Of a DNA stretch of 64,000 bases, positions 27,513 to 34,981 are shown piece after piece. The notes under the pieces were generated by a model that ran no database searches, had not been told where the DNA came from, and saw only the letters and a program-made list of their open reading frames with translations. The stretch spans positions 4,774,001 through 4,838,000 of the forward strand of contig NZ_PJMQ01000001.1 of assembly GCF_002846335.1 (NCBI RefSeq). The letters are read 5' to 3'. Position 1 is the stretch's first letter; every line of letters begins with the position of its first letter. Both the position numbers and the translations under genes were made by a program. This DNA is from Janthinobacterium sp. 61. GTDB taxonomy: Bacteria > Pseudomonadota > Gammaproteobacteria > Burkholderiales > Burkholderiaceae_D.

Positions 27513-28844
27513 CTAATTTCTGTCCTGCAATGGAAGAATCAAGGTTACCGCCAGTCCTCCGCCTTCGCGGTTGGCGAGGGTGATGCGTCCACCGTGCGCT
27601 TCGGCGATTTCGCGCGCCAGGGCCAGGCCGAGTCCCGTGCCGCTGCGCTTGGTGGAATAAAACGGCACCAGCGCGTTTTCCAGCACGGCACCGCTCATGC
27701 CCGGCCCGCGGTCGCGCACTTCGATGCGCAGCTGCCCTTGACCCTGGCTGACGTGCAGGCCGATATGCTGGGGCTTTGAACCGGATTCCAGCGCGTTCTT
27801 GAGCAGGTTGAGCAGCGCCTGCTGCATTTGCGCCGCATCGAACACGGCGGCCTGCGCGGGCGGCGTGCCGTCAAGCGTGAAGGCCGCTTGCGAGGTCAGG
27901 CTGTCGAGGAAGGGTTGCCACTCGCATGGCGCCAGGCGTGGTGCGGGCAGCTTGGCAAAGCGCGCATAGCCGAGGATAAAAGTTTCCAGGTGACGCGTGC
28001 GTTCCTCGATGGTGGCGAGGATTTGCGGCAGGCGCTCGGTCTGGCCGCGGCGCACCAGCTCGGCGCCGGAATGGGCCAGCGAGGCCAGTGGCGCCAGCGA
28101 GTTGTTGAGCTCATGGCTGATGACGCGGATGACTTTCTTCCAGGTTTGCACCTCCTGGCGCCGCAGTTCCAGGGTCAGTTGACGCAACAGCAGCAGTTCG
28201 TGCTTGCGCCCGTTCAGGCTGAAGCTGCGCCGTGCCAGGTGATACACCTCTTCCTGCTCCCCTTCGCCGCTGGTAAACAGGCCATCGTTGCGGCGCGCCA
28301 GCGCCTCGGCCAGGGCTGGCGCCGCCTCGCGCACGATGTCTGCCAGGTGGTGTCCTTCGAGCCGGCGGCCGTGGTGCAGCAACTGGCGCGCGGCCAGGTT
28401 GGCGTAGACGATGGCGCTGCCCTCGGCCACCAGCAGCATGGCCACCGGCGTGTTTTGCACCATGGTGTCGAGCAGCAGTTCGCGCTGCACCAGATCCAGG
28501 CGCTGCTTGCGCAGCACGTCGCCCAGCGCATTGTGGGCCGCCACCAGGTCGGCCAGTTCATCGTTCTGCGGCCAGCGCAAGCTGAAGCCGAAGTCGCCGT
28601 CCTGGTAACTGGCAACCGTGCCGCTCAAGGCGCGAAACAGCGACAGCATCGATTGCAGCTGCGCGCGGATGGTAATGACGGCCACCGGCAGCACGCACAG
28701 CAGGGTACCCGCCAGCACCAGCAGCGGCTGGCCCGGCAAAAAATGCGCCAGCAGCAAGGCGATGACTATGCCCAGCACCAGCAAGGTGACGATCAGCGCC
28801 GTCCAGCGCGTGAGCAGGGAGAGGCGCATGGGAGGGTATGCCAT
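27513..28844 (-). CDS. NtrY-like sensor histidine kinase of the ABC export module
   Basis: A 443-residue membrane kinase: two N-terminal helices with almost no periplasmic loop (residues about 12-55), a HAMP-like linker, a PAS domain (TPVAMLLVAEGSAIVYANLAA), the phospho-acceptor H244 in VISHELNNSL, and a HATPase domain with NLLKNALE, DRGPGM and GTGLGLALAREI. The tiny periplasmic region suggests it senses the membrane itself or a cytosolic signal. Its ATG overlaps the TGA of the response regulator (TGATG), so the pair is translationally coupled. It is the last gene of a six-gene minus-strand cluster with the transporter. The signal is unknown. Confidence 0.9.
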   Translation of the reverse strand: MAYPPMRLSLLTRWTALIVTLLVLGIVIALLLAHFLPGQPLLVLAGTLLCVLPVAVITIRAQLQSMLSLFRALSGTVASYQDGDFGFSLRWPQNDELADLVAAHNALGDVLRKQRLDLVQRELLLDTMVQNTPVAMLLVAEGSAIVYANLAARQLLHHGRRLEGHHLADIVREAAPALAEALARRNDGLFTSGEGEQEEVYHLARRSFSLNGRKHELLLLRQLTLELRRQEVQTWKKVIRVISHELNNSLAPLASLAHSGAELVRRGQTERLPQILATIEERTRHLETFILGYARFAKLPAPRLAPCEWQPFLDSLTSQAAFTLDGTPPAQAAVFDAAQMQQALLNLLKNALESGSKPQHIGLHVSQGQGQLRIEVRDRGPGMSGAVLENALVPFYSTKRSGTGLGLALAREIAEAHGGRITLANREGGGLAVTLILPLQDRN

Positions 28845-30196
28845 CAGCCGCGTGCGATGCCCAGGCGTTCCATGCGCCGGTACAGCGCCTGGCGCGAGAG
28901 CCCCAGTTCCTGCGCCGCCTGCGCCACCACGCCGTGTGCGCGCGCCAGGGCGGCGACGACGCTGTCGCGGTCCGTCTCTGTCGCGTCGGCATCCTGAGGT
29001 GCGCGCAGCGATGGCAGTCCCGCCAGTGGCAAGCCTGTTTCCTGCGCGCCGATCACCGGGCCGGCCGTCAGCAGACTGGCGCGCTGCATGACGTTTTTCA
29101 GTTCGCGCACATTGCCCGGCCAGCCGTGCGCCAGCAGGGTAGCCTGTGCCTGCACATCCAGCGTTTTCTCACTGCCCAGGAAATGCCGCGCCAGCACCAG
29201 GATGTCAAGCGGGCGCTGGGCCAGTGGAGGCAGGCGCAGTTCGATCACGTTCAATCGGTAGAACAGGTCTTCGCGAAACGTGCCTGCCCTGATCATCGCT
29301 GGCAGGTCGGCGTTGCTGGCGCTGATGACGCGCACTTTCACTTGCCGCTCGCGGTTCGAGCCAAGGCGCTCGAAGCGTCCCGTTTCCAGCACGCGCAGCA
29401 GTTTCATTTGCCCGGCCAGCGGCAGGTTGCCGATCTCGTCGAGGAACAGGGTGCCGCCGTCGGCCGCATCGAACTTGCCATCGCGTGCGCGGGTGATGCC
29501 GGTGTAGGCGCCAGCCTCGGCGCCGAACAGTTCCGCTTCGATCAACTCCACCGGCACGGCGCCGCAATTGAGCACGACGAAGGGACCGCTGGCGACCTGG
29601 GAATTGGCTTGCACGATGGCGGCGATGCGTTCCTTGCCGCTGCCGTTCGGCCCCGAAATGAGCACGGGCACGTCGGCGCGCGCCACCTGGCAGGCCAGGT
29701 GCACCACTCTTTCGGTGGCCGGATCTTGCCATACCATGCCGCGCAGATCGAAGTCGTGCTCCAGGGCGTGGCGCTGGCGCTGCTCGGCCATCACACGCTG
29801 ACGCAGCGCGCGGTTGGCCTGCCCCAGCTCCAGCAGGTTCTGGACGCTGGTGATCAGGCGCCTGTCATCCCATGGCTTGGCCAGATAGTCGGCCGCGCCG
29901 GACTTGATCAAGTCGACGGCCGCATCGAGCTGGGTCCATGCCGTCAGCAGAATCACGGGCAGGTCCGGGTAGCGCGCGCGGATGGCGTGGAACAGCGCGC
30001 TGCCTTCCTCGCCCGAGGTGGTGTCGGCCGTGAAGTTCATGTCCTGCACCACCAGGTCGATGGCGTGGCGCTCGAGCAGAAGCAGGCCTTCCTCGGGCGA
30101 GGCGGCGCGCACGGCGTCGATCTCGTGCAGGGAAAACAGCACGTCGAGCGCGATGGCCACGGCGGCATTGTCGTCAATAATCAGTACGGTAGGCAT
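28844..30196 (-). CDS. NtrC-family sigma-54-dependent response regulator
   Basis: A 450-residue activator with three domains: receiver with phospho-acceptor D52 (VVQDMNF), AAA+ ATPase with Walker A GPNGSGKE near 182-189 and Walker [14 protein letters not shown], and a C-terminal Fis-type helix-turn-helix ([18 protein letters not shown]). The sigma-54 contact loop reads GAYTGI near 230 where the family consensus is GAFTGA; Tyr for Phe is tolerated in some members. It lies 44 bases after the second permease and overlaps the kinase. The sigma-54 promoter upstream of the adaptor gene is its obvious target. Confidence 0.93.
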
Positions 30197-30240
30197 GCGC
30201 GCAGCATAACATTGTCAGGCCAGCCATGGCGGGGGCAAAT

Positions 30241-31476
30241 TCATGCGCTGCGCGTCGCCGTGGCAGGCGAAATACTGGCCGCACGCCATGCCGGACCGTA
30301 CACTGCGCCCAGGCCCAGAAGCCAGAACACCAGCGCGCCTCCCACCAGATAGGGCAGGGGCAGGCGGGCCATTTCCAGCTGGCTCACCAGCAGCTGGTTC
30401 AGCGCGAGGGCCAGCATTACGCCGGCCGCCACGCCCACGCTGGTGATCATGAAGTTCTCCGTCAGGAAGTAGCGCAAGATGTCGATGCGGCGCGCACCGA
30501 GCGCGCGCCGTACGCCGATCTGCTTGCGCCGCTGCGTGACCCACAGGCTGGCAATGCCGACGATGCCGCTGGCCGTCACCAGCAGGAGCAGGGCCGAGAC
30601 GGTGATCAGCATCCACGACAGGGCGCGGTCGGCGCGGTAGCGCGTGTCGCGGTCTTCGTCGAAGCTGCGGATGCGCACGATCAGTTTGTCCGGCGTGGCT
30701 GCGCGGACGGCTTGTTCCACTTCTTTCATCACGCGGTCACGCTGACCCGGTTCGGCTCGGATGGTCAGCAATGCATCGCCGTCGCCCGTCAGGCGCACGG
30801 GAAACAGGATTGAATATTCGCCGCGCTCGCCCACTTCCGCCCCCTGGGTCTGCAACCGTTCGATGACGCCGACGACCTGCAATTTCTCTGCGTCCTCGCC
30901 GGTGCCCATGAACATGGGCATGTTCAAGGCGCTGCCGCCGCCAGGGTACATTTTTTTTGCCAGCGCCCGCGTGATGATGACTTGCGGTGGTGATTCTTTT
31001 GTCACATTCTGGTCAACTTCCGTAATTTCAGCGGGCGTAAAATCGCGCCCTTCCACCAGTTTCAAGCCCCATGTCTTGATCAGCGAGTCGGGGGTGAGAT
31101 ACACGGCGGCATTGGCGGAGGTGTTTTCCTGTGTGCGGTTGACAGCAAAGCCGCTGCTGCTGCCGTTGCGCGACAGCGGCACCTGGCTTACCTGCGCCAC
31201 TGAGACGACGCCCGGCACGGCACGCGCAGCGGCGGCCAGGCGCTTTTGCAGAGCCAGTTCTTCATTGTGGCCCTGCTGGCGCAAGTTGCGCGCCAGCAGA
31301 TGGAAGACGTCGCGCTCTGCCGCCACGCCGCTGGGGCGCGCCGCCACCTCCTGGCGTACGTTGACGATATGCAGGGCATTGGCCAGGATGGCCAGACTCA
31401 GGGCTACCTGCACGGCAACCAGGATGGCGCCGGTTTTGCTGCGCATCAGCGCAGACAGGATGGGTCGGATTTCCAT
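30241..31476 (-). CDS. MacB/FtsX-like ABC permease (second subunit)
   Basis: A 411-residue permease: one N-terminal helix (AILVAVQVALSLAILANALHIV), a large periplasmic MacB-like domain of about 230 residues, then three C-terminal helices with the FtsX-type cytoplasmic segment QRRKQIGVRRALGARRIDILRYFL. This is the type VII ABC layout used for mechanotransmission in efflux of peptides, lipopeptides or lipoproteins. Unlike MacB, the ATPase is a separate gene. It lies 29 bases after the first permease; the two probably form a heterodimer. Confidence 0.9.
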   Translation of the reverse strand: MEIRPILSALMRSKTGAILVAVQVALSLAILANALHIVNVRQEVAARPSGVAAERDVFHLLARNLRQQGHNEELALQKRLAAAARAVPGVVSVAQVSQVPLSRNGSSSGFAVNRTQENTSANAAVYLTPDSLIKTWGLKLVEGRDFTPAEITEVDQNVTKESPPQVIITRALAKKMYPGGGSALNMPMFMGTGEDAEKLQVVGVIERLQTQGAEVGERGEYSILFPVRLTGDGDALLTIRAEPGQRDRVMKEVEQAVRAATPDKLIVRIRSFDEDRDTRYRADRALSWMLITVSALLLLVTASGIVGIASLWVTQRRKQIGVRRALGARRIDILRYFLTENFMITSVGVAAGVMLALALNQLLVSQLEMARLPLPYLVGGALVFWLLGLGAVYGPAWRAASISPATATRSA

Positions 31477-34884: not shown

Positions 34885-34900
34885 TGCACGATCCGTGCCA
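34885..34900 (-). promoter_or_regulatory. Sigma-54 promoter of the ABC export module
   Basis: The minus strand reads TGGCACGGATCGTGCA, against the consensus TGGCACGNNNNTTGCW. The invariant GG (-24) and GC (-12) have the required ten-base gap, and only one consensus base differs. Transcription would begin near 34874, about 15 bases before the adaptor ATG. The same operon encodes an NtrC-family activator. Confidence 0.85.
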
Positions 34901-34932
34901 CTGCATAAGCCATTGATCTGCAAAGAGAAAAA

Positions 34933-34981
34933 CCGGAGTGTCCGGCTGTCCGCCGTGTCCGCGCCGTCCGCCAGGTGTCCG
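34933..34981. repeat. Array of five TGTCCG-like repeats, candidate enhancer
   Basis: TGTCCG occurs at 34939, 34947, 34956 and 34976, and CGTCCG at 34965, spaced 8, 9, 9 and 11 bases apart. The first copy is part of the dyad CCGGAGTGTCCGG (34933-34945). Relative to the sigma-54 start the array lies at roughly -60 to -107, a usual position for NtrC-type enhancer sites. Confidence 0.55.

Follow-up and report, generated by a model that had tools for sequence, protein, structure and literature searches.

The window analysed here, a stretch of 64,000 nucleotides from Janthinobacterium sp. 61, is part of a 6.0-Mb genome on a single contig and contains an operon that appears to encode a self-regulating, MacB-like ATP-binding cassette (ABC) exporter, whose two permeases come in different types within the genus. 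The operon comprises six minus-strand genes, extending from 34853 to 27513. The first determines a periplasmic adaptor of the membrane fusion protein (MFP)/HlyD kind, resembling MacA (33585-34853; HlyD_D23/RND_mfp). It is followed by genes for an ABC ATPase like those of MacB, LolD and DarD (32826-33554; ABC_tran); for two permeases, P1 (31506-32816) and P2 (30241-31476), both of which match MacB_PCD and FtsX above the Pfam cut-offs and both of which are of type A of the two genus types; for an NtrC-family response regulator (28844-30196; Response_reg, Sigma54_activat and a Fis helix-turn-helix); and for a membrane histidine kinase with a minimal periplasmic loop (27513-28844; PAS and HATPase_c, with the H-box SHELNNSLAPL and a HisKA match that scores under the family cut-off). 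These family matches bear out the first-pass annotation of this DNA, which had read the six same-strand genes as adaptor, ATPase, two type VII permeases, NtrC activator and kinase. Its remark that the kinase has almost no periplasmic sensor fits an N-terminus that is hydrophobic by score over residues 6-69, with a short polar break recognizable by eye.

Orthologues of the operon are present in 31 of 36 congeners, which together with the window make up the congeneric set of 32 rows used below. A second set, the named loci, consists of the best 80 of at least 465 confirmed matches; most of their titles give genera of Oxalobacteraceae (a few give only Burkholderiaceae or Burkholderiales), and they partly overlap the congeneric set, Janthinobacterium loci being repeated. 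The adaptor was found in all 80, and the comparison of gene order across genomes that the first-pass annotation had proposed found the six-gene order kept in 78, the remaining two being interrupted by contig ends. One congener has, besides an intact copy of the operon near one end of a contig, a seemingly broken one at the very start of that contig (L085, G031:C1 1-12000); the degenerate copy, probably an uncollapsed assembly overlap, was excluded from the congeneric set. In Massilia sp. Root351, P2 and the regulator gene are separated by a TetR-like gene and by a reductase-like gene on the opposite strand (L111, 12620-14110; both named by protein appearance).

Predicted control of the operon

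A sigma-54 -24/-12 promoter, TGGCACGGATCGTGCA, is found on the minus strand at 34885-34900, with one mismatch to TGGCACG-N4-TTGCW, as had been reported in the first-pass annotation. The idea that such a match is meaningful by itself was rejected, as the 6.0-Mb genome contains 130 sites with no more than a single mismatch, eight of which are listed as exact, where the reversed pattern gives 48. The site is made credible by its conservation across congeners and named loci: all 32 rows of the congeneric set keep a TGGCAY-N7-GCW promoter upstream, and a strict promoter lies no more than 90 bp from the start in 76 of 79 named loci (one of the 80 had too little upstream DNA to be counted). The conserved start of the adaptor gene is the ATG at 34853 (MIRDTS...); the ATG of the longest open reading frame, at 34913, sits upstream of the promoter. 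Divergent from the operon is a MutS-like gene with an uncertain start (GTG at 34938 or ATG at 35010).

Upstream of the promoter, at 34939-34981 on the minus strand, is a predicted enhancer array of CGGACA repeats, candidate sites for the encoded regulator. Four copies are exact (34981-34976, 34961-34956, 34952-34947 and 34944-34939) and share one orientation, and a degenerate copy, CGGACG, occupies 34971-34966. The first-pass annotation had mentioned an enhancer array in its title only, without describing it; the array is real, in that the 160 bp upstream of the promoter in the window contain four copies of GGACA/TGTCC against 0.35 expected, a count equalled in none of 5000 dinucleotide shuffles. 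Three to five copies of CGGACA are present in all 32 congeneric rows, and at least two in 65 of the 79 named loci. By the same kind of shuffling, 302 copies of GGACA/TGTCC were seen in 77 named loci where 24.7 were expected, 75 of these loci being individually enriched. For the 12 distant loci that have a strict promoter the figures were 58 and 4.3, with individual enrichment in 11 of them (L222 is the exception). A site resembling those bound by integration host factor (IHF), gATCAAtggcTTA (34906-34918, minus strand), falls between array and promoter. It has one mismatch to WATCAANNNNTTR, which we take to be the IHF consensus and which occurs in its strict form in 24 of the 32 congeneric rows (the window is not among these) and in 60 of the 79 named loci.

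A palindromic array was rejected for the window, all copies being direct. Inverted TGTCCG copies occur in the upstream region of only two of the 32 congeneric rows, and at least one is present in 47 of the 79 named loci. The same genome also has a second sigma-54 exporter (L067, G000:C1 932000-950000), in which the kinase and regulator genes are divergent from those for the adaptor, the ATPase and a fused permease of 813 amino acids; it has a perfect site, TGGCACGGATGTTGCA, plus TGTCCGGAAGTGGACA, an inverted repeat of the GGACA half-site. An array of direct copies only, as in Janthinobacterium, is thus a variation on an inverted-repeat theme. A CGGACA triple is found at only one other place in the genome, near 9203 of L088 (G000:C1 4957203), in the ribosome-binding region of a lipoprotein-like gene, and no sigma-54 site was visible by eye near it.

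The encoded regulator has the features expected of an activator of such a promoter. It scores 208.6 bits against Sigma54_activat, and its sigma-54 interaction loop reads GAYTGI in the window and GAYTGA in 89 of 128 rows, GAFTGA being the typical motif of sigma-54 activators. The full recognition helix is identical in 95 of 110 near homologues, and its core, RQ[AS][LF]YRR (RQxxYRR), is found in all 110 of these and in all 17 distant regulators. This core and the half-site, both shared across distant lineages, constitute the best evidence that the regulator may bind the array. The proposal of the first-pass annotation that the operon is switched on by the activator it encodes is strongly supported by the conservation of promoter, IHF-like site, array and helix core, so that self-activation is a well-supported prediction. 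The genome has a single copy of rpoN.

Apparent exchange and multiplication of the permease pair

The most unusual feature of the operon, missed in the first-pass annotation, is that the permease pair seems to be exchangeable. Among the 31 congeners, the aligned sequences of adaptor, ATPase, regulator and kinase share 73-99% identity with those of the window, and the identities of P1 and P2 to the window fall into two classes (86-95% and 79-89%, respectively, in ten genomes; 63-72% and 55-69% in 21). The drop in DNA identity starts at the end of the ATPase gene, with recovery towards the end of P2. Divided at 80% DNA identity over P1-P2, the set contains 11 rows of type A (window included) and 21 of type B, the latter taking in three divergent genomes (L057, L063 and L064). 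We rejected the possibility that the types are two paralogous loci, since the operon has the same neighbouring genes in the loci compared. In a wider tree with seven rows of each type, A and B are sisters, with L057 beside B, and L063 and L064 grouping with two Rugamonas; the recent import of either type from another genus was therefore also rejected.

Mapped on the P1-P2 tree, type needs a single change, a result invited by the way in which the types were defined. Five changes are needed on the adaptor-ATPase tree, at least four of them forced by strong branches, and none of 500 shuffles of the type labels gave so low a number. On the regulator-kinase tree the number is eight, at least five of them forced, and 105 of 500 shuffles were as low.

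Amino acid differences fixed between the types (11 A rows against 18 B rows, with L057, L063 and L064 excluded) are concentrated in the permeases: 54 of 436 positions in P1 and 61 of 411 in P2 (62 in a separate alignment), compared with four of 242 in the ATPase (all within the last nine residues), one of 424 in the adaptor, none of 450 in the regulator and none of 443 in the kinase. In the permeases, 106 of the 115 (46 of 54 in P1, 60 of 61 in P2) are in presumed periplasmic parts, the boundaries of which were drawn from hydropathy and by eye; a model of P2 made afterwards has helices at 14-46, 281-315, 330-367 and 374-391, in agreement with these boundaries. No fixed difference is found in residues 286-411 of P2, or in residues 1-40, 321-340, 361-380 and 421-436 of P1. 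Between types (eight A and 15 B rows), the median ratio of nonsynonymous to synonymous divergence (dN/dS) is 0.36 for P1 and 0.39 for P2, compared with 0.09-0.11 in adaptor, ATPase, regulator and kinase; within A it is 0.07 and 0.12 for P1 and P2, and within B 0.25 and 0.21. A McDonald-Kreitman-like table for the periplasmic parts (106 nonsynonymous and two synonymous fixed differences; 431 and 771, respectively, within types) is not proof of positive selection, because synonymous sites are highly variable within both types, and with such variation fixed synonymous differences would be improbable in any gene. The row filter used for this table gives one fixed ATPase difference instead of the four of the main count.

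As a local control, 43 open reading frames of the window were compared with 60-kb segments surrounding the operon, taken from six genomes that consist of no more than two contigs. Only 12 of the 224 comparisons with more than 60% coverage fell below 80% identity, namely four for P1, four for P2, three for the MutS-like gene and one partial match; the permease dimorphism is thus exceptional locally, though not unique. The MutS-like gene (35010-36680, plus strand) is itself dimorphic across the genus, its identity, in the genomes where it was found, being either about 58-73% or 85-93%; the two forms are distributed differently from the permease types. Downstream of the operon, a gene for a PEP-CTERM protein (26753-27274, minus strand) has a counterpart of 92% identity in one congener (L080); in other congeners it is at most about 67% identical or was not found.

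Further from Janthinobacterium, the pair has apparently been multiplied. In a class-wide sample, P1 homologues (E up to 1e-20) were found in seven of 274 genomes, the window's included. A family of the same class, presumably gammaproteobacterial (f38), has one in 129 of 149 sampled genomes and at least two in 23 of the 149, counts that may be low, as no more than 11 candidates were scored per genome. We examined 23 regions from this class, of which f38 supplied 19 (picked mainly for multiple copies) and other families four. Ten, all from f38, have a complete arrangement of adaptor, ATPase, (P1-P2)n, regulator and kinase, with n = 5, 4 and 3 in one each and n = 2 in seven, and in these multiplied-pair operons the adaptor, ATPase, regulator and kinase are each single. 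Five others have n = 1, two are irregular, two, from families other than f38, show neither regulator nor kinase, one is an orphan pair and three are cut by the end of the stretch or contig (two of these with five P1). Within three of the stacked operons the permease pairs are 36-61% identical. An adaptor is present in 21 regions; a strict sigma-54 site was found in 12 of them, a last-base variant (judged by eye) in six and a weaker site in one, and the two without any are those that show neither regulator nor kinase. In a plasmid collection, six records were found, one of which lacks gene annotation and another of which, for a plasmid of 0.9 Mb from Pseudoalteromonas xiamenensis, is annotated with the six genes in this order. 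There, a further gene (L230, 3330-4643), annotated as a sigma-54-interacting regulator, precedes the adaptor gene of the operon.

From all this, it seems that the operon encodes an autoregulated MacB-like type VII ABC exporter with a constant engine and sensor, in which P1-P2 is the variable specificity part; we would give this a probability of roughly 0.6. Various observations count against it. The inverted half-sites in so many named loci make the all-direct array a lineage feature, and the full recognition helix is identical in only two of the 17 distant regulators. The clustering of type on the adaptor-ATPase tree implies that permease exchange has not been free of descent, and with A and B as sisters within the genus, no outside donor is seen. 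The periplasmic domains are fast-evolving in any case: among the 78 named loci with all six genes, P2 shows lower similarity to its counterpart in the window than do adaptor, ATPase, regulator and kinase in 77, and the same is true of P1 in 68. Permease synonymous divergence is raised only moderately, and the between-type dN/dS is below 1 and is raised within B too, so part of the divergence may reflect relaxed constraint. Finally, the dimorphism of the MutS-like neighbour suggests that local recombination may be high generally.

Several of these points would be at home with an ordinary envelope-stress or multidrug pump of the MacAB kind, in which the dimorphism is neutral and results from fast-evolving periplasmic domains and occasional homologous recombination: the low similarity of P2 and P1 relative to the other genes, dN/dS values that stay below 1 between types and are already elevated within B, and a second dimorphic gene next door. 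We consider this unlikely, because the permeases are tightly constrained within A but not between types, because type is hardly clustered on the regulator-kinase tree and yet the permeases keep two clean types, and because it is the pair alone that has been repeatedly multiplied in another family.

Likely function and relation to known systems

The closest solved relatives of P1 and P2 by sequence are MacB proteins, and the P2 model (predicted local distance difference test score 85.8) has as its best fold match MacB 5gko (Foldseek E 8.9e-19; template modelling score 0.60 by query). Nearest to the ATPase among solved structures, along with many other ABC ATPases, are 5xu1, MJ0796, LolD, YbbA and MacB ATPases. 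MacB is described as acting on periplasmic substrates by mechanotransmission, and permeases of its type as able to form homo- or heterodimers with a separate ATPase (PMC5985334). The periplasmic faces, which are what varies with type, are therefore where cargo would be met. With MacAB-TolC the operon shares MacB_PCD and FtsX permeases, an adaptor and an ATPase; it differs in having ATPase and permeases as separate proteins, two different permeases rather than one, predicted sigma-54/NtrC self-control and no TolC gene inside.

In the exporter as we envisage it, the kinase would phosphorylate the NtrC-type regulator, which may then oligomerise on the GGACA array, IHF presumably bending the DNA between array and promoter. 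The sigma-54 polymerase would be activated at 34900-34885 and all six genes would rise together, a positive loop that conservation strongly supports. Adaptor, ATPase, regulator and kinase would form the constant engine and sensor, and the periplasmic domains of P1 and P2 would decide which periplasmic compound is exported, the cargo probably being driven through a TolC-type channel by mechanotransmission, by analogy with MacB. To judge from the gene comparisons, Janthinobacterium species have exchanged the P1-P2 pair among themselves, and in the distant family it has been multiplied behind a single ATPase.

Two other known transporters offer partial parallels. The ATPase finds its best NCBIfam match in DarD of the darobactin exporter DarBCD, and the adaptor weakly matches DarC; neither reaches the equivalog cut-off (259.7 of 375 bits and 55 of 450), nor do P1 and P2 for DarB (17.5 and 22.2 of 700 bits), the DarB model being a single long permease of 777 positions. 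P1 can be aligned with the first half of the ADOP model (TIGR03434) and P2 with its second half, but as two separate genes, scoring 170 and 209 bits, respectively, where the cut-off is 622, they fall outside that family.

The likeliest cargo would be a peptide or other envelope-active natural product. In two congeners (G014, which is 82% complete, and G023) the orthologue was not seen, and homologues of P1, P2, adaptor and ATPase are present instead (L065, 6028-10675; L066, 5987-12008), with 33-40% identity for P1, P2 and adaptor and 66-67% for the ATPase. Each set is immediately preceded by a gene resembling those for lanthipeptide synthetases (RamC_N, Pkinase, LANC_like) and by an ABC transporter, and that of G023 also carries a gene for an outer-membrane channel (OEP). 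They favour a peptide cargo for the superfamily, though not necessarily for the operon of the window. Of the envelope-active compound, lipopeptide or other, that the first-pass annotation had proposed for export or resistance, the general part fits MacB-type transporters and the lanthipeptide-linked relatives and is plausible; nothing points to a lipopeptide, and that part is unsupported. These relatives, with the best match of the ATPase to DarD (under its cut-off), might also suggest a dedicated exporter for an endogenous natural product whose biosynthetic gene cluster is located far from the operon. This seems improbable to us, as no lanthipeptide or peptide-synthetase biosynthetic family was found among the 13 window neighbours scanned (19117-45089), the scan of the named loci having covered the ten query genes, and the presence of the operon in 31 of 36 congeners is unlike that of a typical accessory cluster. 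The operon in the window includes no TolC-type channel gene.

How the exporter senses its circumstances may be judged from the kinase, which is constant while the permeases vary. The cues that the first-pass annotation had put forward, damage to the membrane or the transported molecule within the bilayer, are candidates. The lack of fixed A/B differences in the kinase argues against its directly reading a type-specific ligand, and its constancy across permease types leaves transporter-coupled or generic envelope sensing; as a hypothesis, then, the operating transporter or the overall state of the envelope would be a likelier source of the signal than ligand binding by the kinase itself. Here there is a parallel in the Bce modules (BceAB-RS; PMC10314905), which combine a MacB-superfamily transporter with an intramembrane-sensing kinase in a positive loop, and whose kinases, proposed in that source to sense transporter cycling, resemble that of the operon in having almost no extramembrane loop. 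Bce modules are Gram-positive systems without an adaptor and with a single BceB permease, which has a single large extracellular domain; the operon has two separate MacB-type permeases instead.

It is conceivable, therefore, that the operon serves Bce-like peptide sensing and detoxification, with flux sensed by a transporter-kinase complex and self-protection rather than export as its role. MacB-superfamily permeases and a kinase with almost no extracytoplasmic loop, joined in one predicted positive loop, are consistent with this, as are the absence of fixed type differences in the kinase and the single kinase that serves up to five permease pairs. There are, though, an adaptor, two single MacB-type permeases unlike BceB and an NtrC-type regulator, which the regulator of Bce modules is not known to be; and a kinase free of fixed differences would also fit a generic envelope signal, the transporter-kinase complex being putative. 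We regard this alternative as possible, but somewhat doubtful. To return to the autoregulated exporter, a more elaborate form of it, which we offer tentatively, would be modular, with interchangeable permease cassettes, exchanged as two periplasmic types among Janthinobacterium species and stacked (two to five or more to an operon) in the distant family, and a kinase that reads whichever transporter is working; that the kinase senses transporter cycling here is a hypothesis suggested by its constancy across permease types and numbers.

A link between sigma-54 and FtsX-like permeases was already known. Sigma-54 was connected with the bacterial exterior in a survey of 2011 (PMC3162934), and a survey of 2025 found predicted sigma-54 promoters enriched at COG0577/FtsX-like permeases, naming gamma-Proteobacteria, Opitutia and Bacteroidia and terming this first evidence (PMC12316311); an encoded activator, an enhancer array, permease exchange and multiplied pairs are not mentioned in the part of it that is accessible. 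Apart from this survey, the open-access literature searched contained no paper that describes the operon, an exchange of permease types or the stacking of permease pairs. If our reading is correct, the operon would be the equivalent, in Gram-negative bacteria and driven by sigma-54, of the peptide-sensing modules of Gram-positive ones, and would provide a natural comparison set for establishing which part of a MacB-type transporter chooses the cargo. With two permease types that differ mainly in the periplasm, and up to five pairs to one ATPase, the choice of cargo would be directly testable.

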